This document shows, in pieces, positions 25,978 to 41,609 of a DNA stretch of 47,199 nucleotides. Within the stretch, counting starts at the first letter, position 1, and every line of letters starts with the position of its first letter. The position numbers were made by a program, and so were the translations under genes. Source of the DNA: Clostridia bacterium (GTDB lineage: Bacteria > Bacillota > Clostridia > Christensenellales > Aristaeellaceae). The stretch lies in assembly GCA_030530315.1 (NCBI GenBank), contig JAUMVG010000022.1, positions 1 to 47,199 on the forward strand, in the 5' to 3' direction. A model generated the notes under the pieces. The model was not told where the DNA came from. It ran no database searches and saw only the letters and a program-made list of their open reading frames with translations.

Positions 25978-26017
25978 AGGAGAATGCTGCGTTGGCAGCC
26001 CTGTGATGGATCGATGG

Positions 26018-26941
26018 TCAGTCATTGGAGGAGCGCAGCGTCAGCATCCAAACCTCGGGCGCGGAACCAAGCCGAAGGTTCACGCCTTCGCAGCCGACGC
26101 CCTCTGTGGTGAGGATCGGCAAGCCGCTGTCCGTTCGCCAGCCGGAAAGGTATTGATCCTCGACGCGGGTCAGGGGCAGGATGCTTCTGCCGAACAGTCG
26201 TATCTGCCCGCCGTGGGTGTGCCCGGTGAGAATAAGGTCGCACCAACGGCCGCTGTTGGAGGCTTCACTGGTCAGCAGCACCGGAAGAAGCTCCGGGCTG
26301 TAGGAGATGACGACGACGCAGTCGCCTCGCGTGAAGCTCTGCCCGGCGGAGTTGTAGTTGGTGTCCCCGCCGCAGACGCCGGCGAGCCAGATCCTGTCGT
26401 CGCCGGAGGTGATCAATGTCCGGTTGTTAAAGAGGGGCTGAACACCGGCTTCCGTCAGCTGTTGCCGCAGGAGATCCCAATTCTCATCCTCGGGCGCGGC
26501 GACGGCATACTTTCCAAGAGGCGCGTCAAAGCTATATATATAATGGAAGAAACTCTGACGCAGGTCGGTCTGACTTTCGGAATCATCGCTGCCGGCGGGC
26601 GAGGTATTCAGAATCTCCAACAGGGATTTGGAGGTATAGTCGCCGCCCAGGATCAGCATGTCCGGCTTCAGCTCCTGAAGCTGCTCGAACAATCGACCCG
26701 CACGGGTAGGCGTGTTGACGCCGCACAGATCGATGTCTGAAGCGTACAATATGCTGACGTTCTCGAAGGCCGGCGGCAGGTCTGGCACCACGACGGTCGC
26801 ACGGCGAACGCGGACCATCGAGGCATTGAGGAAAGCGACCCCTGCCAGCAGAACCAGTGCCAGCAGCAGCGCCGCGAAGGCCTTCAGCGCGAGGATTCTT
26901 CCCCGGCTCAGCTTTCCGTTCTTCTTTTGACGTTTTGCCAT
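26018..26941 (-). CDS. Membrane-anchored metallophosphoesterase-like protein
   Basis: A 307-residue protein with one N-terminal membrane helix (about 15-40) and a calcineurin-like phosphoesterase fold resembling YkuE. Only part of the di-metal site survives. ASDIDL replaces the usual SDxH (His becomes Asp71), GGDYTS keeps the second Asp, the GNHD/E motif has become APEDEN, the HxP motif has become SYSP, but the C-terminal GHTHGGQIRLF is intact. Activity is therefore doubtful. ATG 26941 has GAGGAAG upstream and directly precedes the basic start of the anchor. It runs towards the parS cluster and is divergent from the DUF5711 gene. Confidence 0.8.
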   Translation of the reverse strand: MAKRQKKNGKLSRGRILALKAFAALLLALVLLAGVAFLNASMVRVRRATVVVPDLPPAFENVSILYASDIDLCGVNTPTRAGRLFEQLQELKPDMLILGGDYTSKSLLEILNTSPAGSDDSESQTDLRQSFFHYIYSFDAPLGKYAVAAPEDENWDLLRQQLTEAGVQPLFNNRTLITSGDDRIWLAGVCGGDTNYNSAGQSFTRGDCVVVISYSPELLPVLLTSEASNSGRWCDLILTGHTHGGQIRLFGRSILPLTRVEDQYLSGWRTDSGLPILTTEGVGCEGVNLRLGSAPEVWMLTLRSSND

Positions 26942-27062
26942 GTCTTCCTCATAATGTCGCAAAAAACGACGGTACTGCGGCGAATGCGGCCACAATATGT
27001 CCGGTCTGTGAAGAAATAGACGGAATTGTCCGCTTTTTGCCCGTTTTGTCACAGGAGCGTTG

Positions 27063-27091
27063 TTGAATCACGGACTATATTCCATTATAAT
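27063..27091 (+). promoter_or_regulatory. Sigma-A promoter for DUF5711 gene
   Basis: TTGAAT (27063-27068) and a perfect TATAAT (27086-27091) are separated by 17 bp, about 75 bp before ATG 27167. It may also drive cvpA. Confidence 0.85.
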
Positions 27092-27166
27092 AGCAATGAC
27101 AATGGCATACAAGGGACAATAGCCCTCCTATGCCGCGTCATATTTTAAACAATTCAGGAGGATTCC

Positions 27167-28267
27167 ATGGAAAGGAACCGAAATGGACGCCTTCCATGGG
27201 CAATCGCTCTGTTGATCGTCACCTTCACCATCGTGATAGCGCTGGCCGGAGGAAGGATAATCAGCAATGCCACCCACCGCAGCTCCTACGACTATAAGGC
27301 GGTTCAGCTGGCCTCGAACCGAAAGCTGCAGGTCGTGGACGACGGCTTTGTGTATTACGATGGAAGCTACATCGGCGCGGTGACGACGGACGGCCGCGTC
27401 AAGTGGTCCTACCTGATCGGCACCAACGCGGATTTCGCGGCCAATGCCAACGGCGTGGCTGCGTGGGCCGGCGACACGTTGACGCTGATCGACAGCCAGA
27501 CCGGCACGCCCTCCTTCAGCGGCGCGATGGAGACGGACGTTCTCTCCGCCACCATCGGCAGCCGCTATACCGCCGTTCTGCTGGGGCCGGAATACAACAG
27601 CACGATTGTTCTGATGGAACAGGGCGGTCGGCGTATCAACAGCATCACGTTGAACAGCCAGACCGTGATAGAGTATGGGTTTTTCTCAAATGGGTCCCTG
27701 TTGTGGCTGATGAGCCTGGACACCAGCGGCACGGTGCCGAGCTGTACGGTGAATACCTACAAGCCCGGCAAGGAAATGGTGGGCTCCATCCACGACAACG
27801 AGCAGCTGATGTACGGCGTGGTGTTCCAGTCCTCCTACTTCTGCTGCGCGGGAGACACCTACCTGAAGGTCTACGACTACACCGGCAAGGAGGACAAGTC
27901 CCGCAGGCGTAAGGTCTACGGCTGGTACATGGCCGCGCTGGACGAGAGCGTGCTGGACAACCCGCTGATGGCCTTCGTGCCCAACGCCCAGTACGATTCG
28001 GAGTCCGGCATGCAGGATGTGCGGATGATTCGATCCGACCTGGACCAGCAGGTGCGCATGCCCTACGGCTGCCAGTCGCTGATCGCCCGGAACGACAGGG
28101 TGTACGGCTTCTCCACGGAGGGCTACGTCGCCATCGCCACCCAGGGCAGCCCGAACGTCTACGCCTACGCGCTGCCGATGCTGTTCGACAAGGTCTACGG
28201 CGTCACGGCCAACAACATGGCCATACTGGGAAACGGAAACATCATCTACATCCTCAATCTCTCCTGA
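27167..28267 (+). CDS. DUF5711-like membrane-anchored beta-propeller protein
   Basis: A 366-residue protein with a basic start, one membrane helix (about 10-30) and an extracytoplasmic part built of repeated short beta-strand blades (for example VVDDGFVYYDGSYIGAVTTDG and GVTANNMAILGNGNIIYIL). The pattern matches PQQ/WD-type propellers and the clostridial DUF5711 family, whose function is unknown. AGGAGG precedes ATG 27167. It is followed 74 bp later by cvpA and then ftsK on the same strand, so an envelope or division-related role is possible but only inferred from position. Confidence 0.75.
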   Translation: MERNRNGRLPWAIALLIVTFTIVIALAGGRIISNATHRSSYDYKAVQLASNRKLQVVDDGFVYYDGSYIGAVTTDGRVKWSYLIGTNADFAANANGVAAWAGDTLTLIDSQTGTPSFSGAMETDVLSATIGSRYTAVLLGPEYNSTIVLMEQGGRRINSITLNSQTVIEYGFFSNGSLLWLMSLDTSGTVPSCTVNTYKPGKEMVGSIHDNEQLMYGVVFQSSYFCCAGDTYLKVYDYTGKEDKSRRRKVYGWYMAALDESVLDNPLMAFVPNAQYDSESGMQDVRMIRSDLDQQVRMPYGCQSLIARNDRVYGFSTEGYVAIATQGSPNVYAYALPMLFDKVYGVTANNMAILGNGNIIYILNLS

Positions 28268-28341
28268 CCGCCGCGCATAATACGGCAATAAATGGGAATA
28301 GATAAGGTATGTTAAACCGATCCGCTAAAGGGGGATGAAAA

Positions 28342-29079
28342 ATGAATCTGAACCTGCTGGATATTACGATCATCGTAATTCTCGCGTTCTACCTGATATC
28401 GGGCATGTATCGCGGCTTTATAACGTCGCTGCTGAGCACGCTTGGTTTTGTCGGCGCGTGGTTCGGCGCTCAGAAGCTGTATGCCAGGGTGGCCGAGCTG
28501 GCCCTCTCAAACCAGACGCTGATGGCAGTGCTCAACCAGTACCTGGAGCCGGAGAGCTTCTTCAAGACCCACAGCCAGGCCATCAGCACGGTGTCGGAGG
28601 TCATCGCCGGCGGCGAAGCGGCCATACAGAACGCCGTCAACTCCCTCTCGCCCCAGCTGTCCGTGTTTGCCAAGGCCTTTGAGGCAAACGTTCGGGCGCA
28701 GATGTTCCAGCGCCTGGGCATCAGCACTCTGGCCGACTACCTGGATCAGACGATCTGGCAGGCGGTGTTCAACGTCGGCGCGTTCCTGCTGTGCTTCATC
28801 GCGCTGTACGTGCTGGCCAGCCTGGTGGTCAACCTGCTGGACCACGTGATCTCCTTCCCCCTGGTGCGCGGCTTCGACTGGCTGCTGGGCGGCATCTTCG
28901 GCGTGGCCCGCGGTCTGGTGGTCGTCGTGCTGGTGCTGTTCCTGCTGCCGCCGATCGTGCAGATCGTCTCCCCCGAGTTCGTGGAGAGCCTGCGGGCGGG
29001 ATCGTCGCTGTACAGCATCGTCACACAGATGGATTTCCTGAATGTGAACAACATCGTGACCAGCCTGGTGGGCGGTTGA
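28342..29079 (+). CDS. cvpA: CvpA-family membrane protein
   Basis: A 245-residue protein with four membrane helices: two near the N-terminus (about 5-45) and two near 140-170 and 185-215, separated by an amphipathic region. NLLDITIIVILAFYLISGMYRGF and the GxxxG-containing VRGFDWLLGGIFGVARGLV are characteristic of the CvpA/colicin V production family. These proteins are linked to envelope homeostasis in other bacteria; the mechanism is unclear. GGGGGAT lies just upstream of ATG 28342. A long hairpin separates it from ftsK. Confidence 0.88.
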   Translation: MNLNLLDITIIVILAFYLISGMYRGFITSLLSTLGFVGAWFGAQKLYARVAELALSNQTLMAVLNQYLEPESFFKTHSQAISTVSEVIAGGEAAIQNAVNSLSPQLSVFAKAFEANVRAQMFQRLGISTLADYLDQTIWQAVFNVGAFLLCFIALYVLASLVVNLLDHVISFPLVRGFDWLLGGIFGVARGLVVVVLVLFLLPPIVQIVSPEFVESLRAGSSLYSIVTQMDFLNVNNIVTSLVGG

Positions 29080-29101
29080 GAAAACGTGACTTAACTTCGA
29101 C

Positions 29102-29146
29102 AAAACCCCATCTGATTCCGCAAAATTGGGATCAGGTGGGAGTTTT
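29102..29146 (+). terminator. Long hairpin between cvpA and ftsK
   Basis: AAAAC-CCCATCTGATTCC pairs with GGGATCAGGTGGG-A-GTTTT (two G-U pairs, one bulge). The T run is part of the stem, so it could be a terminator or an attenuator for ftsK. A second GC-rich stem-loop lies at about 29189-29215. Confidence 0.55.
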
Positions 29147-29247
29147 GCGTCAAAGGATCATCATCGATTGTAACAAAAATATGGCCGCGCCGCGGGAGCT
29201 GTCCCGGCGGCGGCGCCTGAAACGGTGGCTTCACCGGGGAGGTAAAA

Positions 29248-32109
29248 ATGTCTGTAAGCGCGATAAACAGAAAGCAATATGAGGACAGGGAAAGCGGCGC
29301 CAGCGTGCCGACCTTGGTGCTGTGCGCCCTGGTCCTGTTTACTCTTGCCATATTGCTGATGTACATCTGCGTGGCGACTCCCGTAGATGGCACCAGCATG
29401 GGCGCGATCAAGAATGTTCTGTGCGGCCTGGGCGGCAGTCTGCGCTTTGCGCTGCCGCTGGTGTTGGCCTGGGCGGGCGTGCTGTGCGTCGGCGCGGCCC
29501 GCGGCAGGGGCGTCTCCCCCGTGCGCGTCACGCTGGACGCGATGCTGATCCTCTGCCTGTTCACGGCGGTCCAGCTGTTCTTTGTGGAGCGGATCAAGCA
29601 CGATTACATGACCCTGAGCACCTTCTCCAACTTCGTGACCAAGTCCTACGGCTTTGGCAAGGGCGGCGGCGCCATCGGCGCGCTGCTGGCCTGGCCGCTG
29701 TACAACAGCCTGGGCGTGGCGGGCGGCTTCATCACCACGCTGCTGGTCTCCGTGGTGCTGCTGACGGCCACCGGGCGCGTGGGCCGCGTCGTGCGCTGGT
29801 ACAGGGACCGCGCGGAGAATGCGCCGGTCGAGCGCGTGGAGCGGACCAGAAACGAACGTGTGTTCGATAAAATGGAGACTTCAACCCGGCGTCGAGCCGG
29901 CAGGAACGCCTATGCGGAGCCCGCTCAGGCGGCTCGCGGCGCGGCGCGGCCCCGCCAGCAGGCCGGCCAGAGGATGCAGAGCACTGCGGCGCGCCGGACG
30001 GATGCCCACAGACCCCTTCGCGATCCCTCTGCCGACGAGGCCTTTGGCAGCCGCCCGGCCCGGGCCGTGAACCAGCCTGCCCGAAAGCGCGCTCCGGTGG
30101 CAGCCGATGCGATGCAGAGCGCTGCCCCGGCAAGGCGCAGGCCCGCTGCTGCTGCGGCGCAGCAGGCCCAGCCGACAAAGCGAAAGAAGCTGTATAACGA
30201 AAAGATCGTTACAGAGCAGAAGCCCGCGGTCGTTCAGAACAATGCGCCGGTGGAGGCGCTGTTCGACGCAAGCGACGATTTCGACGTCCCGACGGCGGGC
30301 CTGCTGAAGACCGATAAGGCGGAAAAGAAGGAGGTTCGCAGCACCTTCAAGCCCGACCGTCCGTCCATGATGCGAAATGCCGAGATCGTGGACATCCCCG
30401 ACGCGGAGCCGGAGGCAGTGCAGGCGGTCAAGCCCGAGGCGAAGGTCGCGCCCATCAAGGCTGACAAGAAGAGCAACATCAGTATCGACGACCTGAAGAT
30501 CCAACCGGAGGCCTACGAGCTGCCGGATGAGGACGAGGCTCCCTTCGACATTCCCGCCGAGAAGCCGAAGGCTTCCGCGAAGGCCGGCATTGCCGCCAAG
30601 GAGGACAATGCCGCGAAGGTCATGGAGTTCCCGAAGCTGAAGCGGGCGAAGGAAACCCAGGCCGTCGAGGACGTGCCGGAGTACAACTATCCCCCCATCG
30701 ACCTGCTGGCGCGGGGCGAGGTGGAGGACACCACCAGCCATGGCCAGCGGGACATCCAGAAGGCCCAGCTGCTGGAGGAGACGCTGCAGAGCTTCGGCAT
30801 TTCCGCCAAGCTGACGGGCATCGCCCATGGACCGGCGGTCACCCGCTTTGAGCTGCAGCCGGCCCCCGGCGTGAAGGTGAGCCGAATCACCGCCCTGGCG
30901 GACGACATCGCCCTGAACCTGGCGGCGATGTCGGTGCGCATCGAGGCGCCCATCCCCGGCAAGGCCGCGGTGGGCGTGGAGATCCCCAACGACAAGGTGG
31001 AGATGGTCCGCCTGAGGGACGTGCTGGAGTCCAGCGAGGCCCAGCGGCATCCCAGCCGCATCGCGGTGGGCCTGGGCAAGGACAACTCGGGCCGCTACAT
31101 CGTGGCGGACATCGCCAAGATGCCTCACGTGCTGATCGCCGGCCAGACCGGTTCCGGTAAGTCGGTGTGCATCAACGCCATCATCACGTCGATCCTGTTC
31201 CGCTCCTCGCCCGAGGAGGTCAAGCTGATCCTGATCGACCCGAAGATGGTGGAGCTGTCCATCTACAACAACATCCCGCACTTGGTGTGCCCGGTGGTCA
31301 CCGACCCGAAGAAGGCGGCCAGCGCCCTGGATTGGGCCGTGGCGGAGATGACGAAGCGCTACAAGCTGTTCGCGGAGAGCGGTGTGCGCGACATCAAGGG
31401 CTACAACAAGAAGCTGAAGCCCGGCGAGAAACCGATGCCCCAGATGGTCATCATCATCGACGAGCTGGCCGACCTGATGATGGTCTCCCCCGGCGAGGTC
31501 GAGGACAGCATCTGCCGTCTGGCGCAGCTGGCCCGCGCCTGCGGCATGCACCTGGTCATCGCCACCCAGCGCCCGTCGGTGAACGTCATCACCGGCATCA
31601 TCAAGGCCAACATCCCCACCCGAATCGCCTTCTCCGTGGCGTCGCAGGTGGACAGCCGCACGATGATCGACCATGGCGGCGCGGAGAAGCTGCTGGGCAA
31701 CGGCGACATGCTGTTCGTGCCCAACGGCATGAAGTCCATGCGCGTGCAGGGTGCCTGGGTCTCCGACGACGAGGTGCACGCCATCGTGGAGTACATCAAG
31801 CAGTCCGGCGAGGCGGTCTACGATCCCGATATGCTGGAGCACCTGGAGAACGCCAACCGCAGCGACGCCGAGAAGGAGGAGTTTGAGGCCGAATACGATC
31901 CCAAGCTGCCCGAGGCGGTGGACATTGCCCTGGACATGGGCCAGGTCTCCATCTCGATGCTGCAGCGGAAGATGCGCATCGGCTATGCCCGCGCGGGCCG
32001 CATCATCGACGAGATGGCGCGCCGGGGCATCGTGTCTGAGGCCGACGGCTCCAAGCCCCGCGTGGTGCTGATCACCCGCGAGCAGGCGCAGCAGATGTTT
32101 GAGGAGTAA
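29248..32109 (+). CDS. ftsK: DNA translocase FtsK/SpoIIIE
   Basis: A full-length 953-residue septal DNA pump. The N-terminus has four membrane helices (within about 10-175), followed by a long Ala/Arg/Pro-rich linker (about 180-460). The alpha and beta motor domains follow, with Walker A GQTGSGKS (632-639), Walker B MVIIIDELADL (Asp738, Glu739) and ATQRPSVNVITG. The C-terminal winged-helix gamma domain (about 885-953) contains RKMRIGYARAGRIID. It moves chromosome DNA through the septum at division or sporulation. GGGGAGG precedes ATG 29248. From about 30100 to the stop it is duplicated 3524 bp downstream; the last 416 bp are identical in both copies. Confidence 0.96.
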   Translation: MSVSAINRKQYEDRESGASVPTLVLCALVLFTLAILLMYICVATPVDGTSMGAIKNVLCGLGGSLRFALPLVLAWAGVLCVGAARGRGVSPVRVTLDAMLILCLFTAVQLFFVERIKHDYMTLSTFSNFVTKSYGFGKGGGAIGALLAWPLYNSLGVAGGFITTLLVSVVLLTATGRVGRVVRWYRDRAENAPVERVERTRNERVFDKMETSTRRRAGRNAYAEPAQAARGAARPRQQAGQRMQSTAARRTDAHRPLRDPSADEAFGSRPARAVNQPARKRAPVAADAMQSAAPARRRPAAAAAQQAQPTKRKKLYNEKIVTEQKPAVVQNNAPVEALFDASDDFDVPTAGLLKTDKAEKKEVRSTFKPDRPSMMRNAEIVDIPDAEPEAVQAVKPEAKVAPIKADKKSNISIDDLKIQPEAYELPDEDEAPFDIPAEKPKASAKAGIAAKEDNAAKVMEFPKLKRAKETQAVEDVPEYNYPPIDLLARGEVEDTTSHGQRDIQKAQLLEETLQSFGISAKLTGIAHGPAVTRFELQPAPGVKVSRITALADDIALNLAAMSVRIEAPIPGKAAVGVEIPNDKVEMVRLRDVLESSEAQRHPSRIAVGLGKDNSGRYIVADIAKMPHVLIAGQTGSGKSVCINAIITSILFRSSPEEVKLILIDPKMVELSIYNNIPHLVCPVVTDPKKAASALDWAVAEMTKRYKLFAESGVRDIKGYNKKLKPGEKPMPQMVIIIDELADLMMVSPGEVEDSICRLAQLARACGMHLVIATQRPSVNVITGIIKANIPTRIAFSVASQVDSRTMIDHGGAEKLLGNGDMLFVPNGMKSMRVQGAWVSDDEVHAIVEYIKQSGEAVYDPDMLEHLENANRSDAEKEEFEAEYDPKLPEAVDIALDMGQVSISMLQRKMRIGYARAGRIIDEMARRGIVSEADGSKPRVVLITREQAQQMFEE
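30655..30794 (+). repeat. 140-bp identical block, ftsK copy 1
   Basis: This block is identical to 34179-34318, at an offset of exactly 3524 bp. It covers the end of the linker and the start of the motor region. Confidence 0.9.
31694..32109 (+). repeat. 416-bp identical block, ftsK copy 1
   Basis: Identical base for base to 35218-35633 (offset 3524 bp), ending at the stop codon in both. It encodes the last 138 residues including the gamma domain. Confidence 0.93.
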
Positions 32110-32144
32110 GCCAGAATTATAGTCATTATCTTCATCTAAAAGCT

Positions 32145-32177
32145 ATCCAGTCTACTGTTTTCATCAGTGGACTGGAT
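32145..32177 (+). terminator. Terminator after ftsK
   Basis: ATCCAGTCTACTG and CAGTGGACTGGAT form a 13-bp stem with one G-U and a 7-base loop, followed by a T/A-rich tail. The remainder of 32110-32342 is AT-rich and carries an approximate direct repeat of TGTCTATAAAA(C/A)TACC (32189, 32301). Confidence 0.75.
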
Positions 32178-32259
32178 ATGTTTATATGTCTATAAAACTA
32201 CCTTGATTGAAATAGATAAAGGAAAGTGGATAATGTCGAAAACAATTGCGCATGTTACC

Positions 32260-32288
32260 TTGTTAAAATTCTGGTGATATACTATAAT
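32260..32288 (+). promoter_or_regulatory. Sigma-A promoter for Mrr-type gene
   Basis: TTGTTA (32260-32265) and a perfect TATAAT (32283-32288) are separated by 17 bp, 55 bp before ATG 32343. GGGGG lies 8 bp before that ATG. Confidence 0.85.
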
Positions 32289-32342
32289 AGAAAATGATAA
32301 TGTCTATAAAAATACCATGATAAAGAAAATGGGGGTTTCAAT

Positions 32343-33827
32343 ATGCCAACTTGTTCGAGGTGTGGAAAGAAGGGTATCTTCCTAAGAATTGATCCTGTTC
32401 TTCGAATGTGCGAAAAATGCGTAGAGCAGAAAAGAATAGAAGATCAAATAGAAAAAGACAGGAAAGAACAGAAAAGAATACAGGACCTAATAGAAAAGGA
32501 GAGGGAAGAAAAGGAAAGAATAGAAAAAATACAAGAAGAGAAAAGAGAACAAATAAGAATAGAAAAAGAGATAAAGAAGCAGGAATTCTTAATAGCGACA
32601 GCAAAGGAAAAAGAAGAAAAGGCACTTAAGGCAGACACTTTTGCTGCTTTTATGAAATTATATAATGATGCAATTTATTGCATGCGTGAAGCAGTGGAAA
32701 TAAGATTTGGCGCGAAAAGTGATTATGAGCGATTATTGAATGATAAACAATGGCATATAAGAGATGCCATTGAAAAAGAATGCAATGAAATAATAAAAGA
32801 TGCAAAGGGAAAGTTTAGAAATAACAAGGGAGTGATTATTGAGAGAAGCAAGAAATTTAGAACCAGTATACTAATATGCAAACAAAATAATGAATTTAAT
32901 GAAGAAACACTATTGTTTGCAGAAAAGATGCTGCATATATTATCTGTCAAAATAGGTCTTGATTCATTGGAACTGAATACAAAGAAAAGAAGAGTAAGAT
33001 TCTATGAAATTGACTCATTGGAGGGACATGCCTTTGAATACTGGTGCGCTGATTTATTAAAGAACAATGGATTTGAAAATGTGGAGGTAACGCAGGGCAG
33101 CAATGATCAGGGTGTTGATATTGTGGCCCAAAAGGGAGATATCAGATATGCCATTCAATGCAAATGTTATTCTTCTGATTTAGGGAATACTCCTATTCAA
33201 GAGGTTGTCGCTGGCAAGACATACTATAAATGTCACGTTGGTGTCGTTATGACCAATAGGTATTTTACAGGCTCCGCAAAAGCTTTGGCGAAAGCAACGG
33301 GAACGCTGCTATGGGATAGAGATAAACTGGAATCAATGTATTCTTACAGCTATGATAAAATGCAAGAAAAGTGGTTTAGGTCAAATGGCATGATGAGTGG
33401 ATACAGAAATGAATCAGGAATGACGAATGATATGATTCATGCCATATTGGATTACTCGGAGAAGTCTGACGAAGAGGACAGTGATCTCAAAATGATGTGG
33501 CAAATGAAATGGTTCATCTATTCCACCAACGCCGAAATAAAGAGATTATTGGCTGAGTATGATTCCAAGTATTCTTCGGAACTATTGAATCAGGCTGCCC
33601 AGGGGATGCAGACCGTTGCGGCCGATCCCATGGAGGCGGCCGCCCTGCAAAGGCGCCGTCTTGGTGCCGTAGAGGCACAGAACGCCCAGCCGATCAAGCG
33701 GAAGAAGCTGTACAATGAGAAGATCGAGGCGGTACAGAAGAAGGAAGCTGTCCAGGACAGCACGTCCAAGGAGGCATTGTTCAACGCGGGTGACGAAAAT
33801 AACTCACATATAATAAGCTTATTGTAA
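32343..33827 (+). CDS. Zinc-ribbon, coiled-coil, Mrr-type nuclease fused to FtsK linker
   Basis: A 494-residue chimeric protein. A zinc ribbon (Cys4, Cys7, Cys23, Cys26) is followed by a charged coiled coil (about 27-97), a helical region (98-220) and an Mrr-type restriction endonuclease fold (about 225-330) with an intact site: Glu232 in FEYW, Asp259 in QGVDIVAQ, Gln272 and Lys274 in IQCK. Residues 331-415 are unassigned. From about 417 the sequence switches to a diverged copy of the FtsK linker (QPIKRKKLYNEKIE). Up to about 33590 the DNA is strikingly AT-rich, unlike its neighbours, pointing to horizontal gain. The frame ends at TAA 33825-33827, but the same frame continues downstream as FtsK. 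It probably cleaves DNA; target is unknown. Confidence 0.8.
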   Translation: MPTCSRCGKKGIFLRIDPVLRMCEKCVEQKRIEDQIEKDRKEQKRIQDLIEKEREEKERIEKIQEEKREQIRIEKEIKKQEFLIATAKEKEEKALKADTFAAFMKLYNDAIYCMREAVEIRFGAKSDYERLLNDKQWHIRDAIEKECNEIIKDAKGKFRNNKGVIIERSKKFRTSILICKQNNEFNEETLLFAEKMLHILSVKIGLDSLELNTKKRRVRFYEIDSLEGHAFEYWCADLLKNNGFENVEVTQGSNDQGVDIVAQKGDIRYAIQCKCYSSDLGNTPIQEVVAGKTYYKCHVGVVMTNRYFTGSAKALAKATGTLLWDRDKLESMYSYSYDKMQEKWFRSNGMMSGYRNESGMTNDMIHAILDYSEKSDEEDSDLKMMWQMKWFIYSTNAEIKRLLAEYDSKYSSELLNQAAQGMQTVAADPMEAAALQRRRLGAVEAQNAQPIKRKKLYNEKIEAVQKKEAVQDSTSKEALFNAGDENNSHIISLL

Positions 33828-34178
33828 ACAGATAGAGAAAAAAGAAGGGCGCTTCGCAAACCTTTCAAACCTGATCGACCCTCCATGATGAGGGACGCTG
33901 AGCTGGTGGACATCCCCGATGCGGAGTCCAAGGCAGTGCAAGAGATAATACTCGAGGGGAAGATCGCGCCCATCAAGGCTGACAAGAAGAGCAACATCAG
34001 CATCGACGATCTGAAGATCCAGCCTGAGGCCTATGAGCTGCCGGACGAGGACGAAGCCCCCTTCGATATTTCCGGCGAGAAGCCGAAGGCTTCCGTTTCC
34101 GTGAAGGCTGGATTTGCCGGCAAGGCGGACAATGCCGCGAAGGTCATGGAATTCCCGAAGCTGAAGCGGGCAAAGGAC

Positions 34179-34318
34179 ACCCAGGCCGTCGAGGACGTGC
34201 CGGAGTACAACTATCCCCCCATCGACCTGCTGGCGCGGGGCGAGGTGGAGGACACCACCAGCCATGGCCAGCGGGACATCCAGAAGGCCCAGCTGCTGGA
34301 GGAGACGCTGCAGAGCTT
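34179..34318 (+). repeat. 140-bp identical block, ftsK copy 2
   Basis: Counterpart of 30655-30794, 3524 bp away, identical base for base. Confidence 0.9.
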
Positions 34319-35217
34319 TGGCATTTCCGCCAAGCTGGTGGGCATTGCCCATGGCCCGTCGGTCACCCGCTTTGAGTTGCAGTTGGCTCCCGGCGTAAAG
34401 GTGAGCCAGATCACCGCCCTGGTGAACGATATTGCCTTGCATATAGCGGCGACGTCCGTACGCATCGAGGCGCCGATCCCCGGTAAGACCGTGGTGGGCG
34501 TGGAGATCTCCAATGACAAGGTGGAGATGGTCTGCCTGAGGGAGGTGCTGGAGTCCAGCGAGGCCCAGCGGCATCCCAGCCGCATCGCGGTGGGTCTGGG
34601 CAAGGACAACTCGGGCCGCTCCATCGTGGCAGACATCGCCAAGATGCCCCACATGATGATAGCTGGCCAACTTGGTTCTGATATCTCGGTTTGCATCAAT
34701 TCCATAATTGCATCGATTTTGTTCCGCGCATCTCCCGAGGAGGTCAAGCTGATCCTGATCGATTCGAAGAAGGCTGAGTTGTCTATGTACAACAACATCC
34801 CGCATTTGGTGTGCCCAGTGGTCACGGACTCGAAAAAGGCGATAGGTGCATTGAATTGGGTTGTGGCAGAGGCAACAAAACGCAACAAGCTGTTTATGGA
34901 GTGTGGTGTGCACGATATCAAGGACTACAACAAAAAGTTGAAGCACGGTGAGAAGCCGATGTCTCAAATAGTTTTTGTTATTAAAGAATTGGCTGATATA
35001 ATGGTGGATTCTGATGATGACGTCGAAGATAAAATCTATCGATTAACAGCTGTAGCTCATTATTGCGGCATACACCTGGTCATCGCAACCCAGTGTATAA
35101 TAGTGAATGTCGTTACCAACATTATCAAGGCCAACATCCCCACTCGCATCGCCTTTTCCATGGCCTCCCAGCAGGACAGCCGCATGATAATTGACCAATG
35201 TGGCGCGGAGAAGCTGT

Positions 35218-35633
35218 TGGGCAACGGCGACATGCTGTTCGTGCCCAACGGCATGAAGTCCATGCGCGTGCAGGGTGCCTGGGTCTCCGACGACGAGGTG
35301 CACGCCATCGTGGAGTACATCAAGCAGTCCGGCGAGGCGGTCTACGATCCCGATATGCTGGAGCACCTGGAGAACGCCAACCGCAGCGACGCCGAGAAGG
35401 AGGAGTTTGAGGCCGAATACGATCCCAAGCTGCCCGAGGCGGTGGACATTGCCCTGGACATGGGCCAGGTCTCCATCTCGATGCTGCAGCGGAAGATGCG
35501 CATCGGCTATGCCCGCGCGGGCCGCATCATCGACGAGATGGCGCGCCGGGGCATCGTGTCTGAGGCCGACGGCTCCAAGCCCCGCGTGGTGCTGATCACC
35601 CGCGAGCAGGCGCAGCAGATGTTTGAGGAGTAA
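35218..35633 (+). repeat. 416-bp identical block, ftsK copy 2
   Basis: Counterpart of 31694-32109. Recombination between the two would remove 3524 bp including the Mrr-type gene and leave one intact ftsK. Confidence 0.93.
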
Positions 35634-35691
35634 ACTCAAGTAGCTGAGTCGGGAGGCTGTAGTATTTAGAAACTCCCGTACAAACAGAAAT

Positions 35692-35720
35692 GCCAGGGAC
35701 GTTGGAAATGCGTCCCTGGC
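35692..35720. terminator. Bidirectional terminator
   Basis: GCCAGGGACG and CGTCCCTGGC form a perfect 10-bp stem with a 9-base loop, followed by GTTGTTTTATT. It separates the convergent FtsK-copy and GH3 genes. A second, weaker CGGGAG/CTCCCG hairpin lies at about 35650-35678. Confidence 0.88.
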
Positions 35721-35736
35721 GTTGTTTTATTGTGAC

Positions 35737-38154
35737 TTAGTCCAGCTTCAAAATTAGCCCCAGTATGTGCCTTGCGGCGAGCTCCATCTGCTCCCGGGTC
35801 AGCACGCCCTTTTCGAGGGCGGCCAGCAGGCGCTCGGGATAGCCGCAGCCCATCTTCACGTCGTTACCGGCGGCGCACTCCTTGTAGTGCTCGCCGGAGG
35901 TCCACCAGTCGGTGGTGACCAGTCCCTCGTAGCCCCACTCGCCCCGGAGGATGCCGTTCAGCATGTCGGCGTTCTCACTGGCGCGGTGGCCGTTGATCAG
36001 GTTGTAGCTGGTCATGATGCTCCAGACGTCGTAGTCCTTGACGATGATCTCGAAGGCCTTCAGGTAGATCTCGCGGATCGCGCGCTCCGAGGCGCGGGAG
36101 TCCGCCTGCTTGCGGTTGGTCTCCTTGTTGTTCAGGGCGAAGTGCTTGGCGGTGGCGGCGACGCCGTTGCTCTGCACGCCGCGGATCAGCGCGCCGGCCA
36201 GGCGTCCGGTCAGCAGCGGGTCCTCGGAGTAGTATTCAAAGTTGCGGCCGCACAGGGGATTGCGGTGGATGTTCACGCCGGGGGCCAGCCACGCGCCAAT
36301 GTTGTTCTCCTTGACCTCGGCGCCGGCGGCGCGACCCACGGCCTCGGTGAGCTCCGGATCCCAGGTGCAGGCCAGCAGGCAGGCGCAGGGGAAGGCGGTG
36401 GTCTTGACGCCCACCTCCGGCAGGATGCGCAGGCCCGCGGGGCCGTCGGCGGTCATGGCGCTGGGCACGCCGAAGGCGGGCAGGTTGCCGTAGCCGAAGG
36501 TGTTGGCCACGCCGGCGTTGGGCTGTCCGCCCAGCAGCCAGGCCAGGTCCTCGTCGGAAAGCTGGGCGATGAAGTCCTCCAGGGACAGCTTGCCCTCGGC
36601 GACCTCGATCAGCTGGCGGTTGGGATTCGGGCGAAGGAAGTGGTCCACCGGCATCGGCCGCACGGCGGGGGACACGCATTCGCAGTCCTCGTCGGCCATG
36701 CGCTCCAGCGCGTCGGCGTTGGGGTCGTTGGGGGTGGACAGGGGCAGGGCCTCATAGCTGCCGTCGGCCAGCATGCGCCGCTCCAGCTGGGTGGGAACCA
36801 TGCGCGGGGAGAGCTGTTCCACCACGCGGTCCGCCTCCAGCGTCCAGGCATAGCCGGCCTGCGCGGCGGAGCGGGCGTCCGTACCCACGAAGAAGCGGTA
36901 TTCGCCGGCCTCCAGCAGCCAGGCGGACTTGCACACCTTGCCCAGGTCGTCGTAGGAGGCCATCTGGGTCACGGGGAAGCGGATCTCCACCCGCTGGGTC
37001 TCGCCGGGCTGCAGCAGGCGGGTCTTCTGCCAGCCGGCCAGCTGCCGGGCGGGCTTGCCCAGCTTGCCCTGGGGCGCGGAGAAGTACAGCTGTACGACCT
37101 CCTTGCCGGGAACGCCGCCGGCGTTGGTGACGCAGGCCCGGGCGGTGACGAGGTCGCCCTCGACGTCCAGCTCCACGCCGGTGATCTCGAAGCGGGTGTA
37201 GGAGAGGCCGTATCCGAAGGGGTAGTTCACCTTTTCCGCCGCGCCGGGAATGGTCTCGAAGTAGCGGTAGCCCACGTAGATGTCGTCCTCGTAGTTCACG
37301 AAGTCGTCCGACTCGTAGAAATTCGGGGAGGAGGGATAGTCCTCCAGCGTGGCGGCAAAGGTGTCCGCCAGCTTGCCAGAGGGGTTGTCCAGCCCCAGCA
37401 GCAGCTCCGCCTCGGCGGCGCCGCCCTCCAGGCCGGCCTGCCACGCCATCAGCGCGGCGTCGATGCCGGGATCATCCTTGAACCAGGTGGTGTCGAACAC
37501 GCCGCCCACGTTCAGCACGACGATCACCGTGTCAAAGGCGGCCTTGACCTTTTCCACCATGGCGGCCTCGGCGTCGGTGAGCACGAAATCGCCCTTGGGG
37601 AACAGGGTCTGGGAGAGGTCGTAGCGCACGTCGCCCTTCCAAACGCCTTTGTGATCGGCGATCCTGTCGAAGGCGCTCTTGCGGTCCCAGCCCTCGCTGG
37701 AGAAGCGGCTGATGGAGATGACCGCCGCGTCGGCGAAGGCCGCGGCCCGGCTGACCAGCTCGTCCGGCAGCTCCGGCTCGTCCACGATGCCGGGCTCCCG
37801 GCCCTCCGCGTAGCGGGCGGCCACGTGGGCGCGGTAGAAGTCGTCTGTCCCGGCGAACACCGTCACCCGGTCGGGGTAGCGCTTCATGCCCTCCGCCAGG
37901 TTCACCACGTAGGGCGTGGTGACGTCGCCGCTGCCGCCGCCGCCCTTCACGTAGTCGTAGGTACCCTTGCCGAACAGGGCCACCTTCGCGCCGCGCCGCA
38001 GCGGCAGGGCGCCGTTGTCATTCTTCAGCAAAACCATGCCTTCCCGGGCGGCGTCGCGGCTGAGCCTGATGTGCTCGGGGCTGGCGGTCACCCGCTGGCC
38101 CTCGGGGCCCAGGGGCAGGCTGGGATGATACTTGATGCGGCTCCACTTGTTCAT
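35737..38154 (-). CDS. Glycoside hydrolase family 3, swapped domain order
   Basis: An 805-residue beta-glycosidase of family GH3 with the two halves exchanged. The alpha/beta sandwich domain comes first (about 30-280, with GMVLLKNDNGALPL and the GLDNPSGKLADTF segment). A fibronectin-III-like domain follows (about 330-440). The TIM-barrel catalytic domain is last (about 520-800), with MTADGPAG, KHFALNNKETNR and the nucleophile Asp749 in LVTTDWWTSGEH. There is no signal peptide, so it acts in the cytoplasm, probably on beta-glucosides or xylosides taken up by the cell. Such order is known in some Ruminococcus and clostridial enzymes. It follows pgsA in the same direction, but a hairpin lies between. 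Confidence 0.92.
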   Translation of the reverse strand: MNKWSRIKYHPSLPLGPEGQRVTASPEHIRLSRDAAREGMVLLKNDNGALPLRRGAKVALFGKGTYDYVKGGGGSGDVTTPYVVNLAEGMKRYPDRVTVFAGTDDFYRAHVAARYAEGREPGIVDEPELPDELVSRAAAFADAAVISISRFSSEGWDRKSAFDRIADHKGVWKGDVRYDLSQTLFPKGDFVLTDAEAAMVEKVKAAFDTVIVVLNVGGVFDTTWFKDDPGIDAALMAWQAGLEGGAAEAELLLGLDNPSGKLADTFAATLEDYPSSPNFYESDDFVNYEDDIYVGYRYFETIPGAAEKVNYPFGYGLSYTRFEITGVELDVEGDLVTARACVTNAGGVPGKEVVQLYFSAPQGKLGKPARQLAGWQKTRLLQPGETQRVEIRFPVTQMASYDDLGKVCKSAWLLEAGEYRFFVGTDARSAAQAGYAWTLEADRVVEQLSPRMVPTQLERRMLADGSYEALPLSTPNDPNADALERMADEDCECVSPAVRPMPVDHFLRPNPNRQLIEVAEGKLSLEDFIAQLSDEDLAWLLGGQPNAGVANTFGYGNLPAFGVPSAMTADGPAGLRILPEVGVKTTAFPCACLLACTWDPELTEAVGRAAGAEVKENNIGAWLAPGVNIHRNPLCGRNFEYYSEDPLLTGRLAGALIRGVQSNGVAATAKHFALNNKETNRKQADSRASERAIREIYLKAFEIIVKDYDVWSIMTSYNLINGHRASENADMLNGILRGEWGYEGLVTTDWWTSGEHYKECAAGNDVKMGCGYPERLLAALEKGVLTREQMELAARHILGLILKLD

Positions 38155-38182
38155 GTGAATGCATTCCTTTCTTCTGTTTCAA

Positions 38183-38231
38183 AAGGCGTGGGCCCGACCT
38201 GGAGCAAAATCAGGTTCAGGCGCCACGCCTT
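38183..38231 (-). terminator. Terminator after pgsA
   Basis: On the minus strand AAGGCGTGG and CCACGCCTT form a 9-bp stem around a nested CCTG/CAGG hairpin, followed by TTGAAA. It lies in the gap before the GH3 gene. Confidence 0.65.
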
Positions 38232-38239
38232 GAAGTCGG

Positions 38240-38800
38240 TTACATGTCCCGGATGCAGTCCCGGTTGCGGATCAGGTAGTCCGCGCCACTGACGACGGTC
38301 AGGACCAGGGCGATATACATCAGCACGTTGGCGAAGACGATGCCCGGCTGGCCCAGCAGCGAAGCCTCCGGGCCGTTCACAGACACCAGCAGCATCAGCG
38401 CGATGGTGGCCGCCATCTGGAACACGGTCTTCAGCTTGCCCAGGGGTCCGGCGGCGATCACCCGGCCGTTTTCCACCGCCACCAGGCGGAAGCCGCTGAC
38501 CAGGAATTCCCGGGCCAGCATCAGTATGCACACCCAGTCGGGCATGCGGCCCTGGGCGGTCAGCACGATCAGGGCGCTCATCACCAGCAGCTTGTCGGCG
38601 ATGGGGTCCATGAACTTGCCAAAGTCGGTGATCAGGTGCCGTGAACGGGCGATGTGGCCGTCCAGCGCGTCGGTAATGCAGGCTGCCGCGTAGATACCCA
38701 GCGCCACCAGCTGCGCCCAGAGGGGCGACATCCTGGCAAAGACCACGAAAAAGGGGATCAGGCACACGCGCAGCAACGTCAGCTTGTTCGGAAGATTCAT
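38240..38800 (-). CDS. pgsA: Phosphatidylglycerophosphate synthase
   Basis: A 186-residue integral membrane enzyme that makes phosphatidylglycerophosphate from CDP-diacylglycerol and glycerol-3-phosphate. It has about five hydrophobic helices. The CDP-alcohol phosphotransferase signature is complete: DALDGHIARSRHLITDFGKF followed by MDPIADK, giving D-x2-DG-x2-AR-x8-G-x3-D-x3-D. The start NLPNKLTLLRVCLIPFF is typical of PgsA. It begins 25 bp after rimO stops, matching the rimO-pgsA order of many Clostridia. Confidence 0.94.
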   Translation of the reverse strand: MNLPNKLTLLRVCLIPFFVVFARMSPLWAQLVALGIYAAACITDALDGHIARSRHLITDFGKFMDPIADKLLVMSALIVLTAQGRMPDWVCILMLAREFLVSGFRLVAVENGRVIAAGPLGKLKTVFQMAATIALMLLVSVNGPEASLLGQPGIVFANVLMYIALVLTVVSGADYLIRNRDCIRDM

Positions 38801-38825
38801 ATTCGGTACTCCTCAATCGGCGGGG

Positions 38826-40136
38826 TTACAGGACCTCGCCCTCCAGGTCATAGGCGTCAGCGCCGGTGATGCGCACGTTCACGTACTGGCCGGGGGTCAA
38901 ATCCTCGGCGTCCAGCCAGATGCAGCCGTCGCTCTCCGGGGCCTCCAGCAGGCTGCGGCCGAAGAAGCGGCCGGATTCCTCGTCGAAACCGTCCACCAGC
39001 ACTTCGCACTCGGTGCCGATGCGGGCCTCGTTGATCTCCATGGCGATGCCCTGCTGCAGCATCATCAGCTGGTCCAGACGGGCGGTCTTCACGTCCTCGT
39101 CGATCTGGTCCGGCATCTTGGCGGCGGCGGTGCCCTCCTCGGCGGAGTAGGTGAACGCGCCGAGCCGGTCGAAGCGGGCCTCCTTCACGAAGTCCAGCAG
39201 GGTCTGGAACTGGGCATCGGTCTCACCGGGGAAGCCCACGATCATCGTGGTGCGCAGTATGATGCCCCGCTTGCGGCACTCGGCGATGCGGCTCTTGATC
39301 CAGTCAGCGCTGCCTCGTCGGTTCATGCGGCGCAGCAGGTCGTCATCGATGTGCTGCAGGGGCAGGTCCAGGTAGGGGGCCACCTTGGGCAGCCGCTGGA
39401 TGGTGTCCAGCAGCCGGTCCTCGGTGCTGTCGGGATAGCAGTAGAGCACCCGCACCCAGTGCACGCCCTCGATGGCGCTCACCGCCTCCAGCAGCTCGGG
39501 CAGTTGGTAGTGGCCGTCGCCGAGGTCGCAGCCGTAGCGGCTGGTGTCCTGGGCGATCAGGGTCAGCTCCGTGACGCCCTGCGCGGACAGGGTCTTGCAC
39601 TCCTCCACGATGTCGTCGAAGGGGCGGGAGCTGTAGCCGCCGCGGATCAGCGGTATGGCGCAGTAGGTGCAGCGGTTGTCGCATCCATCGGAGATCTTCA
39701 CGTAGGCGCTGTAGCCGGGGGTGGTCAGCACCCGGGGGGTGTGCAGGAAGCGGGCGCCGTTGGCGGTGTAGCAGGGCTTCTCCCCCTTGTCGGAGGCCTC
39801 CATCATGTCGAACAGGCGGGCGTATTCCGCCACGCCCAGTATGCCGTCGATCTCCGGGATCTCCTCCATCAGCGCCTCGGGATAGCGCTGGGCCAGGCAG
39901 CCGGTGACAAACAGCTTCTTGTTCCCCTGCTTCTTGTACTGGGCCATCTCGAATATGGCGTCGATGGATTCCTCCTTGGCGCTCTCGATGAAGCCGCAGG
40001 TGTTTACGAACAGCACGTCCGCCTCGGCGGGATCGCCGACGATCTCATAGCCCCGCTGGCGCAGCATGCCCAGCATGTTCTCGCTGTCCACGCGGTTCTT
40101 CGCGCAGCCCAGGGAAACCATTCCAACCTTTTTCAT
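38826..40136 (-). CDS. rimO: Ribosomal protein S12 methylthiotransferase
   Basis: A 436-residue radical SAM methylthiotransferase that modifies an aspartate of ribosomal protein S12. It has an N-terminal UPF0004 domain (VGMVSLGCAKNRVDSE, VNTCGFI, VTGCLAQRY, giving three cluster Cys), a radical SAM domain (CDNRCTYCAIP, CxxxCxxC) and a C-terminal TRAM domain (about 370-436). GCAKNRVD identifies RimO rather than MiaB. ATG 40136 was chosen because homologues start at MKKVGMVSLG; a GTG 18 bp upstream is possible. It is followed by pgsA and preceded by coaD on the same strand. Confidence 0.95.
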   Translation of the reverse strand: MKKVGMVSLGCAKNRVDSENMLGMLRQRGYEIVGDPAEADVLFVNTCGFIESAKEESIDAIFEMAQYKKQGNKKLFVTGCLAQRYPEALMEEIPEIDGILGVAEYARLFDMMEASDKGEKPCYTANGARFLHTPRVLTTPGYSAYVKISDGCDNRCTYCAIPLIRGGYSSRPFDDIVEECKTLSAQGVTELTLIAQDTSRYGCDLGDGHYQLPELLEAVSAIEGVHWVRVLYCYPDSTEDRLLDTIQRLPKVAPYLDLPLQHIDDDLLRRMNRRGSADWIKSRIAECRKRGIILRTTMIVGFPGETDAQFQTLLDFVKEARFDRLGAFTYSAEEGTAAAKMPDQIDEDVKTARLDQLMMLQQGIAMEINEARIGTECEVLVDGFDEESGRFFGRSLLEAPESDGCIWLDAEDLTPGQYVNVRITGADAYDLEGEVL

Positions 40137-40208
40137 ATCGGCTATCTGTCTCACTTTGCTTGTTATTTTGGTGTCGGTTCGCGGAACACAGTGTCCGGCG
40201 CGTGGGAT

Positions 40209-40691
40209 TCACGGGTCGTTTTCGCGGATCAGCCGGGCCACGGCCTCGGGGACGAAGGCGCTCACATCCCGGCCGAAGGCCAGCAGCTCCCGCACCACGC
40301 TGGAGGACAGGGCGGGCTCGTCGCCCCGCAGATAGAGGGTTTCCAGAGACGGGTTCAGCAGCCGGTTGACCTGGGCGGCTTTTTCCTCATAGTCGTAATC
40401 GGCGGTGTTTCGCAGGCCCCGCACGTACCAGCCCACGCCGTGGCTGGCGCAGTAGTCCGCCACCAGGCCGTCATGGGTGACCACGCGGACGTTGGCCAGT
40501 CCGTCGGCCTCCACGCTGGCTCGGATTGCCTCCGCCATGGCCTCGGCGTCGAAGGCGCGGCGCTTGGTGACGTTCACCCCGATCAGCACGACGACCTCGT
40601 CGAACAGCGCCGCGGCCTTGCGCACGATGTCGCGGTGGCCGTTGGTGAAGGGATCAAAGCTGCCGGCGTACAGGGCGGTTCGATGGGACAT
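40209..40691 (-). CDS. coaD: Phosphopantetheine adenylyltransferase
   Basis: A 160-residue enzyme of the coenzyme A pathway that transfers AMP from ATP to 4'-phosphopantetheine. The nucleotidyltransferase motif YAGSFDPFTNGH carries the TxGH-type ATP site, and YVRGLRNTADYDYE and SSSVVRELLAFG complete the CoaD pattern. The size is standard. The stop of the upstream PHP phosphatase gene is 15 bp away and the ATG has GGAGAG ahead, so these genes are probably cotranscribed. No recG or rsmD is adjacent, unlike in many Firmicutes. Confidence 0.95.
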   Translation of the reverse strand: MSHRTALYAGSFDPFTNGHRDIVRKAAALFDEVVVLIGVNVTKRRAFDAEAMAEAIRASVEADGLANVRVVTHDGLVADYCASHGVGWYVRGLRNTADYDYEEKAAQVNRLLNPSLETLYLRGDEPALSSSVVRELLAFGRDVSAFVPEAVARLIRENDP

Positions 40692-40706
40692 GTTGCTCTC
40701 CTCCGT

Positions 40707-41534
40707 TTATAGCGGGTATTCCACCGGCGTCGCCCCTTGGTATTCCCAGGCGGTTTTGAAGCCGCAGGCGCGGGCCAGTTCGACAGCCCCGGCAAAGCCG
40801 CAGTCCAGGTAGTCGCTGTTGTGGCAGTCGCTGGACAGGATCACGCGGCCGCCGCACTCCCGGACGCGCTTCAACATGGCGGGACCGGGATAGGGTTGGG
40901 TCCGGTAGCCCTTGGCGATGGCGCCGGTGTTGATCTCCACCAGCCTGCCGCTGCGGGCGGCCAGCTCGGCGCACTCCAGCGCGGGACCGAGGTACCTCGG
41001 GTCGGCGTCGTCGAACAGGTCCCGGGCCTCGTTGAACTTCATGACCAGCTCGATGTGGCCCAGTATGTCGGCGTTCGTGCCCTCGATGGATTCGCAGACC
41101 GTGCGGAAGTAGTCACGGCACAGACGGTAGAAGTCGCCGCCGTAGAACTCCCGCGCCGCGGCGACGAGCTTTTCCCGGGTCCAGTCCACGCTCCACAGCG
41201 CGCCGTCCTTCCGAACGTAGTGTACGGATTCGATGGTGTAATCGTAGCCGTAGGGAGAGGGCGGGGCCAGCCAATCGTGCTCGCAGCCCAGCAGGAGCTC
41301 GATCCGGCCGGCGTACTCGCTTCGCAGCCGCAGGACCTCCGTGCGATACTCCGTCTCCCGACAGGCGGGCATGGCGCTGTCGTCGTAGTCGGCGCAGCCG
41401 TGTTCAGAGAAGCCCAGGGTGTGAAAGCCCAGGGCCAGCGCGGCGCGAACCATGTCCTCGGCGGAATCGCGTCCGTCCGAGAAGGTGGTGTGGCTGTGAA
41501 CGTTGCTCTTGGGCAGGATGAGGCGCGTATTCAT
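40707..41534 (-). CDS. PHP-domain phosphatase, histidinol-phosphatase-like
   Basis: A 275-residue PHP-family phosphoesterase. Metal-binding motifs follow the family order: NVHSHTTFSDG (HxH plus Asp), FSEHG, GCEHD, GHIELV, and SSDCHN at the C-terminus. It resembles HisJ-type histidinol-phosphate phosphatases, but no other histidine gene is present, so the substrate is open. ATG 41534 was chosen because it directly follows a near-consensus promoter. The predicted transcript would start at or next to the A of ATG and lack a leader. An upstream in-frame extension would lie inside the terminator and promoter. Confidence 0.85.
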   Translation of the reverse strand: MNTRLILPKSNVHSHTTFSDGRDSAEDMVRAALALGFHTLGFSEHGCADYDDSAMPACRETEYRTEVLRLRSEYAGRIELLLGCEHDWLAPPSPYGYDYTIESVHYVRKDGALWSVDWTREKLVAAAREFYGGDFYRLCRDYFRTVCESIEGTNADILGHIELVMKFNEARDLFDDADPRYLGPALECAELAARSGRLVEINTGAIAKGYRTQPYPGPAMLKRVRECGGRVILSSDCHNSDYLDCGFAGAVELARACGFKTAWEYQGATPVEYPL

Positions 41535-41540
41535 AGCTTC

Positions 41541-41570
41541 ATTATAAGCGTTGCAAATGATTGGTGTCAA
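41541..41570 (-). promoter_or_regulatory. Consensus promoter for PHP gene, leaderless start
   Basis: On the minus strand a perfect TTGACA (41565-41570) and a perfect TATAAT (41541-41546) are separated by 18 bp. The A of ATG 41534 is the seventh base after the -10, so transcription and translation starts nearly coincide. The -35 begins right behind the upstream terminator. Confidence 0.85.
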
Positions 41571-41572
41571 CA

Positions 41573-41598
41573 AAAAGCCGCCCTTGCGGGCGGCTTTT
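41573..41598 (-). terminator. Terminator after YegP-like gene
   Basis: AAAAGCCGCCC and GGGCGGCTTTT form a perfect 11-bp stem with a 4-base loop. The T tract on the minus strand leads straight into the next promoter. Confidence 0.92.
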
Positions 41599-41609
41599 AA
41601 CAATATCGA

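Follow-up and report, generated by a model that had tools for sequence, protein, structure and literature searches.

The Mrr/ftsK' locus and its reading frame

The stretch of Clostridia bacterium DNA analysed here (47,199 nucleotides, hereafter the window) is contig 85 of a draft genome of 3.58 Mb in 144 contigs, which we label G000. Directly downstream of the resident ftsK gene (ftsK1), the window harbors an AT-rich Mrr-nuclease open reading frame (ORF), followed in the same frame by a second, C-terminal copy of ftsK, termed ftsK' (Table 1). A preliminary description, made from the sequence alone, had regarded the two ORFs (32343-33827, 494 aa, and 33885-35633, 582 aa) as a single frame split by one TAA; we confirmed that they share one frame and that 32343-35633 holds one internal stop, at codon 495 (33825-33827), where ftsK1 carries a sense codon. 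The positions of the TAA and of the junctions are those given by the assembly. The same description had placed FtsK homology ahead of the stop, and indeed the homology starts near 33585, corresponding to ftsK1 residue 274 (tblastn), so that about 80 FtsK linker residues lie upstream of the TAA. At this point the GC content jumps from ∼39% to 60%. The loss of the N-terminal membrane domain of FtsK and the retention of the gamma domain (Pfam, 4.2e-25, identical to ftsK1) were likewise borne out.

The catalytic domain of the Mrr ORF includes the residues D..QxK (GVDIVAQKGDIRYAIQCK), read by eye, which we take to be the catalytic motif of Mrr nucleases. The Mrr_N domain, presumably typical of Mrr enzymes, has no Pfam match in this ORF at E 0.1. 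The zinc ribbon and coiled coil named in the preliminary description correspond to C-x2-C pairs and a charged stretch, respectively, both recognized by eye only. Together with its spacer and ftsK', this ORF forms a unit of 3524 bp, located directly after the ftsK stop and before the sequence that adjoins ftsK in the nearest relative (L053), in which ftsK is followed directly by the window's downstream sequence and the unit is absent. The nearest named relatives are Clostridiales/Clostridia metagenome-assembled genomes, one from roe deer jejunum and the others from the RUG series, which we take to be of rumen origin.

Table 1. Features of the Mrr/ftsK' locus, in window coordinates.
Feature	Position	Strand	Basis
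Resident ftsK (ftsK1), 953 aa, Walker A and B intact	29248..32109	+	ORF, Pfam
AT-rich spacer, 233 bp, ∼31% GC	32110..32342	+	composition
Terminator-like hairpin within spacer	32144-32178	+	sequence scan
Promoter-like TTGTTA-17-TATAAT within spacer	32260-32288	+	consensus match only
Mrr-nuclease ORF, 494 aa, AT-rich	32343..33827	+	ORF, Pfam
Mrr_cat domain, residues 223-332, 9.7e-29	33009-33338	+	Pfam
In-frame FtsK linker ending the Mrr ORF, GC-rich like ftsK	33585..33824	+	tblastn, composition
Lone TAA splitting the frame	33825..33827	+	sequence
ftsK' remainder: alpha, degenerate motor, gamma	33828..35633	+	Pfam FtsK_alpha, FtsK_SpoIIIE, FtsK_gamma
Block identical to resident ftsK 30655-30794, 140 bp	34179..34318	+	alignment
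Diverged AT-enriched motor core	34651..35217	+	dS, alignment
Ruined Walker A, GQLGSDIS (resident GQTGSGKS)	34665..34688	+	alignment
Ruined Walker B, VFVIKE (resident VIIIDE)	34971..34988	+	alignment
Block identical to resident ftsK 31694-32109, 416 bp	35218..35633	+	alignment
FtsK_gamma domain inside 416-bp block	35415-35600	+	Pfam
Terminator-like hairpin downstream of ftsK'	35689..35723	+	sequence scan

A degenerate motor between identical flanks

The FtsK motor fold of the preliminary description stands as a fold family, but not as a working motor, since the residues for ATP binding and hydrolysis are lost. Three motifs are affected. In Walker A, D replaces G and I replaces K; in Walker B, K replaces D; and ATQRP is left without its RP (ATQRPS to ATQCII). 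The altered Walker sites are invariant in the 6 motors from the genus and in 12 further FtsK motors. Over the diverged stretch, 59 of 274 genus-invariant residues are altered in ftsK' vs. 0 of 274 in ftsK1 (judged on 25 rows of genus orthologues, among which L053 and L077 share one genome). Within the motor, 49 positions invariant in the six genus sequences differ in ftsK'; seven of these, including the Walker A G and K and the Walker B D, are invariant also in the 12 further motors, and at 21 the ftsK' residue occurs in one of those 12. Judged by these residues, the ftsK' motor is catalytically dead.

Across 1.8 kb, ftsK' and the resident ftsK are 86.8% identical, a likeness that, at the level of sequence, is no chance match. 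A recent, simple duplication proved too simple an account, as old and recently homogenized parts alternate in the copy, which is thus a mosaic: no orthologue in the genus is as diverged as its motor core, and the flanking 140-bp and 416-bp blocks are 100% identical to ftsK1. For the motor core, synonymous divergence (dS) is 1.21-2.52 against the 25 orthologues (ftsK1 included), whereas none of 300 orthologue pairs exceeds 0.72; the mean nonsynonymous divergence (dN) is 0.209 vs. 0.033 for orthologues, and third-position GC drops from 0.96 to 0.45 in the worst ftsK' segment. In a protein tree of 19 motors (built without L053), ftsK' and ftsK1 nonetheless group together against the 17 others (support 99.5/97), so the motor derives from the organism's own lineage; a foreign ftsK as its source is ruled out by this placement. 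Nucleotide trees built separately for linker, alpha, and motor (support 23.9/71, 0/57, and 53.9/68) do not decide whether the split came before or after that of L053, and a tree on all diverged columns joins ftsK1 and ftsK' with support 92. The simplest account we can offer for the mosaic is that, after capture, the motor core of the copy would have evolved rapidly in AT-rich, mobile surroundings and that recombination with the resident ftsK would have renewed its flanks.

The diverged copy also bears the mark of protein-level constraint. With ftsK1 taken as the ancestor and the 249 observed substitutions scattered randomly in 2000 simulations, ftsK' has more third-position substitutions than expected (136 vs. 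98.9; 0/2000 simulations as high), fewer nonsynonymous codons (97 vs. 140.9; 0/2000 as low), and no stops in the diverged part (0 vs. 5.79 expected, P 0.0015), and no frameshift is present. Taken by segment, the stop deficit falls short of significance (P 0.07 to 0.56), as does the third-position excess in the alpha segment alone (P 0.056). By this test on sequence, ftsK' was constrained as a protein at some time, which rules out a simple neutral pseudogene as its entire history, although ftsK' may be one at present.

Relatives in viral contigs and in host genomes

A search of viral contigs with the Mrr ORF returned 17 loci, and in 5 of these the Mrr protein carries FtsK parts above Pfam cut-offs: gamma, a degenerate motor, and Mrr in L041 and L043, a degenerate motor and Mrr in L045, and gamma and Mrr in L047 and L049. 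A wider search with an alignment of the FtsK-bearing Mrr proteins gave 21 loci, nine on contigs already found and 12 new, the latter including a degenerate motor (L172) and a weak gamma (L173). Local gamma and motor profiles score in 8 of 32 viral or phage Mrr ORFs and in none of 1220 shuffles; because 13 of the 32 were gathered through FtsK-bearing queries (L174, the same protein as L173, being uncounted), the unbiased figure is the 5 of 17 loci. Such a protein is also encoded by a complete phage, bajarodcaudo virus 3 (PQ006094.1), as XHH63544.1 (P0001), a 609-aa protein annotated as a restriction endonuclease, whose gene lies ∼1 kb from an integrase gene; its motor match is clear with the family-built profile. 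When the alignment of degenerate motors was compared with FtsK motors, hhalign returned a probability of 99.5 and an E-value of 2.6e-23 (single comparison). Read against ftsK1 in alignment, L041, L043, L045, and P0001 have no GKS at the Walker A place, and their Walker B Asp is replaced by Asn.

In these phage-type proteins both parts lie in one open frame, with the FtsK parts ahead of Mrr, the reverse of the order in the window, where both are present in frame but split by the TAA. Given this reversal, and given that the FtsK part in the window is the host's own, the joining occurred more than once. As for homologues of the fusion, the exact layout occurs in no other genome searched, and it is the combination of parts that recurs, in Mrr proteins of viral contigs and a phage. 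Integrase, helix-turn-helix (L164), and serine-recombinase (L172) genes neighbor the phage-type Mrr genes, surroundings that fit a temperate-phage cargo; the neighbors of L043, judged by eye, resemble structural genes. No FtsK part was detected in the Mrr protein of Roseburia phage Jekyll (Pfam and local profiles), and scans of the viral contigs with L047 alone and with L043 alone each recovered only the query itself. Among the best 25 of 428 plasmid matches to L043, none has a combined FtsK/Mrr name (single names or none).

In the host genomes, ftsK' matches all 28 of the genus genomes searched, although in two (G274, G282) only through distant FtsK-like stretches, and a second full ftsK copy is present in no other genome of this set. 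The Mrr ORF matches 52 places in 48 of 300 family genomes; within the genus, the only Mrr matches beyond G000 are in G278 and G228, both without FtsK parts, and G201 matches the FtsK linker only. With the places in G000 (two) and G201 set aside, 49 host-genome Mrr frames remain, three of which (G010, G263, G186) are matched through the charged N-terminal region alone, and none of the 49 scores with the FtsK gamma or motor profile, whereas the ftsK' of the window, as positive control, scores 4.1e-39 and 4.8e-119, respectively. At least two gamma matches occur in 16 of 308 family genomes, G000 included, a set that includes single genes cut in two where contigs end (G068, G004) and leaves aside seven sub-threshold matches (L117-L123); the gamma frames read from the 15 other genomes contain no Mrr domain (by eye, with Pfam scans made). 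A search of 396 genomes of the order yielded no full-length relative of L043 among the matches listed. The fusion as a widespread chromosomal gene is unsupported by these family and order searches.

Several observations on these genomes concern the copies themselves. The L053 ftsK (∼9394; its genome is shared with L077) is 37 bp short, with its frame broken, at the point that corresponds to the edge of the window's 416-bp repeat, which may reflect faulty assembly. In G254, contig 15 (L089) contains a degenerate ftsK piece at 850-1379 that ends inside gamma, and a 130-aa AT-rich ORF begins one base past its stop (region 850-1773); the piece adjoins a sigma-70-type gene (Pfam), away from ftsK. 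At 849/850 this contig passes from normal to degenerate ftsK sequence, probably through a join error. Within the G254 equivalent of the 140-bp block, contigs 126 and 15 overlap by exactly 99 bp, which suggests that this block is also repeated in G254. Finally, a 798-aa frame in G228 (contig 66; L093) has an Mrr-like C-terminal domain and otherwise resembles, by eye, a DNA methyltransferase.

A captured FtsK part as a possible targeting head

The layout invites comparison with the HerA/FtsK capture systems (DndH and relatives), in which, according to PMC10853773, a nuclease is fused or otherwise coupled to a HerA/FtsK domain acquired from another source; some of these domains stem from cellular FtsK and keep FtsK-alpha, and the proposed role of the systems is to catch invading DNA while it is segregated, transferred, or packaged (PMC10853773). 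The window similarly has a captured FtsK domain joined to a restriction part, a predicted nuclease with an intact catalytic motif. In contrast, the HerA/FtsK part is discussed there as a translocase or pump in multi-gene systems, whereas the motor in the window is dead and gamma is kept; the nuclease in the window is an Mrr, and the terms "mrr" and "gamma domain" occur 0 times in the main text of PMC10853773. Partner genes such as DndF/G, Orc/CDC6, or D5 helicase were not found among the eight neighbors within 25946-41603 (Pfam, E 1e-5).

Other known proteins resemble the window in part. Like chromosomal FtsK/SpoIIIE, the copy has alpha, the motor fold, and gamma, with 416 bp identical, but it lacks the membrane domain, the Walker A lysine, and the Walker B aspartate, and it has an N-terminal nuclease. 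Its Mrr_cat with D..QxK is shared with Mrr-type restriction nucleases, including the Mrr-like nuclease of ZorD (PADLOC, 5.3e-20), but there is no Mrr_N or helicase match and the tail is derived from FtsK. The PADLOC model of SspH, which includes an FtsK-like ATPase stretch, is matched by ftsK' (2.1e-44); the match is confined to the last ∼350 of more than 1500 model positions, and no search for other Ssp-type parts was made. Reuse of the FtsK winged helix-turn-helix as a DNA-binding module is described for phage and plasmid polyvalent proteins, and it is infrequent in the large multidomain ones, in the part of PMC5512222 considered here, which mentions neither Mrr nor a dead motor alongside it. 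The preliminary description knew of no described system with this layout: the exact layout was indeed not found in the open literature, but the general idea is already published as HerA/FtsK capture (PMC10853773, main text). Open-literature searches did not return any dead motor that is kept together with gamma, fused to Mrr, and located beside its source gene, and by combining an inactive motor and gamma with Mrr the locus varies that published idea in a new way.

We read the locus as an FtsK-capture nuclease, in which an AT-rich, viral-type Mrr continues in frame into a copied C-terminal portion of the host ftsK, and give this reading about an even chance of being correct. The gamma domain of FtsK reads the DNA motifs that orient FtsK. 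The FtsK part would accordingly serve as an address label and not as an engine: gamma would recognize the orienting DNA motif that FtsK itself binds, the dead motor would dock with FtsK subunits, or both, thereby placing Mrr on FtsK-handled DNA, or on invader DNA at transfer, segregation, or packaging, although the targets could alternatively include the cell's own DNA. The fusion would now be split or produced as two chains. The earlier suggestion that the nuclease is drawn to FtsK keeps its basis in the retained gamma but loses the working motor, and because the motor is degenerate, any attraction would depend on gamma together with a dead subunit that may co-assemble. The viral-contig and phage proteins with like parts point to more than a one-off accident. 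More tentatively, with the balance somewhat against it, the window may represent an undescribed nuclease class in phages and mobile cassettes of gut bacteria, with dead FtsK mimics (gamma and/or an inactive motor) as the targeting head and with the copy in the window born from, and kept in register with, the host ftsK by recombination. Should the FtsK part indeed act as an address label, it would offer a direct handle on aiming a motorless nuclease at DNA in segregation, transfer, or packaging, and the capture idea could be tested on a known source gene that lies next door and matches the copy exactly throughout the DNA-reading domain; prophages would also be seen to turn components of host cell division into weapons or shields.

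A number of findings weigh against the capture reading. The fusion itself was found in G000 alone (28 genus genomes searched with ftsK', 300 family genomes with the Mrr ORF). Its frame is interrupted by the TAA, no start with a good ribosome site follows shortly after it (by eye), and the first ATG of ftsK', at 33885, has no obvious Shine-Dalgarno sequence at a suitable spacing (by eye). Part of the constraint on ftsK' may predate the loss of the motor, and its raised synonymous rate is accounted for by inference only. The reversed order makes the window fusion independent of the phage proteins and not their orthologue. Among the viral contigs, local profiles detect no FtsK part in the other 12 of the 17 loci (L033, L034, L035, L038, L039 (as L166), L040, and L048 were Pfam-scanned also). 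The motor of the PQ006094.1 protein scores 17.0 vs. a Pfam cut-off of 24, and the protein has no gamma match; L172 scores 20.4 vs. the same cut-off of 24 and retains Asp at the Walker B place (FDELSS), and the gamma of L173 is sub-threshold (17.4 vs. 30.6).

A rival reading is an accident in decay, in which a partial ftsK duplication gained Mrr, lost its function, and is being patched by gene conversion from the resident ftsK, leaving a fusion without meaning. The in-frame TAA, the unclear ribosome site, the dead motor, and the restriction to one genome all agree with such a history, the identical blocks resemble gene conversion, and the degenerate copy in G254 is truncated in gamma. We nevertheless consider decay unlikely, given that ftsK' has no frameshift or further stop and shows a third-position excess (constraint that could partly predate the loss of function), and that similar parts are joined to Mrr in viral contigs. 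As regards the TAA, it may be a recent lesion, or it may be tolerated, with the halves made separately.

The placement of the additional 3524 bp exactly behind the ftsK stop, where the L053 ftsK runs straight into the window's downstream sequence, could alternatively reflect a selfish nuclease cassette that keeps a piece of ftsK solely as a recombination landing pad beside ftsK and leaves ftsK intact again upon entry, the two exact blocks being the parts fit for recombination. A mere homology arm would, however, need neither the protein-level constraint seen in the diverged motor nor an in-frame joining, and the degenerate copy in G254 lies beside a sigma-factor gene, away from ftsK, all of which make this origin distinctly improbable. 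To an assembly artefact, by which a 3.5-kb circle or distant locus was wrongly joined through the 416-bp repeat during short-read assembly, we assign a similarly small probability: the draft state in 144 contigs, the perfect repeat, the 99-bp overlap at which the G254 contigs break in the counterpart of the alpha-side block, and the 37 bp missing from L053 at the repeat edge are compatible with it, but both halves lie within one contig, and the Mrr/FtsK-linker junction at 33585 is outside the repeats, so the fusion itself would outlast a misassembly.

FtsK parts occur in further proteins of the compared genomes. In G243 (contig 142; L128, 4821-6785), a 654-aa protein combines TIR_2 (2.7e-20) with a soluble FtsK alpha, motor, and gamma, with Walker A intact; a second TIR-FtsK fusion, in G115 (contig 7; L186), also has an intact Walker A, agrees at 83% in the TIR part, and its frame stops before gamma. 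This fusion was seen in 2 of 29 genus genomes (frames read at 4 of 16 listed TIR places), and, with motors intact, it would carry the capture theme beyond nucleases. G224 has a second soluble FtsK (L129, 4838-6709; 623 aa) with alpha, motor, gamma, and an unassigned N-terminal part, and a 394-aa protein in G099 (L130, 3267-4451) comprises an FtsK motor stretch and gamma, with no alpha match at E 0.01. Small proteins with a C-terminal FtsK gamma are encoded in G119 at L131 (5616-6329) and L132 (∼5619-5795) and in G263 at L133 (3990-4598), and the L131 gene lies ∼1 kb from a Phage_integrase gene.

Around the locus, the Pfam matches of the neighboring genes are Colicin_V, GH3, CDP-OH_P_transf, UPF0004/radical SAM/TRAM, CTP_transf, and PHP, and two neighbors have no match. 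Within 32000-35800 there are 11 sigma-70-like sites, vs. 4.9 in shuffles, including one with an extended -10 inside the ruined motor (34975-35002); the excess is likely due to the AT-rich patches. Two of the viral loci contain adjacent Mrr frames: L033 (3495-5591) pairs a full frame with a partial one, and in L038 (3678-6459) both are full.

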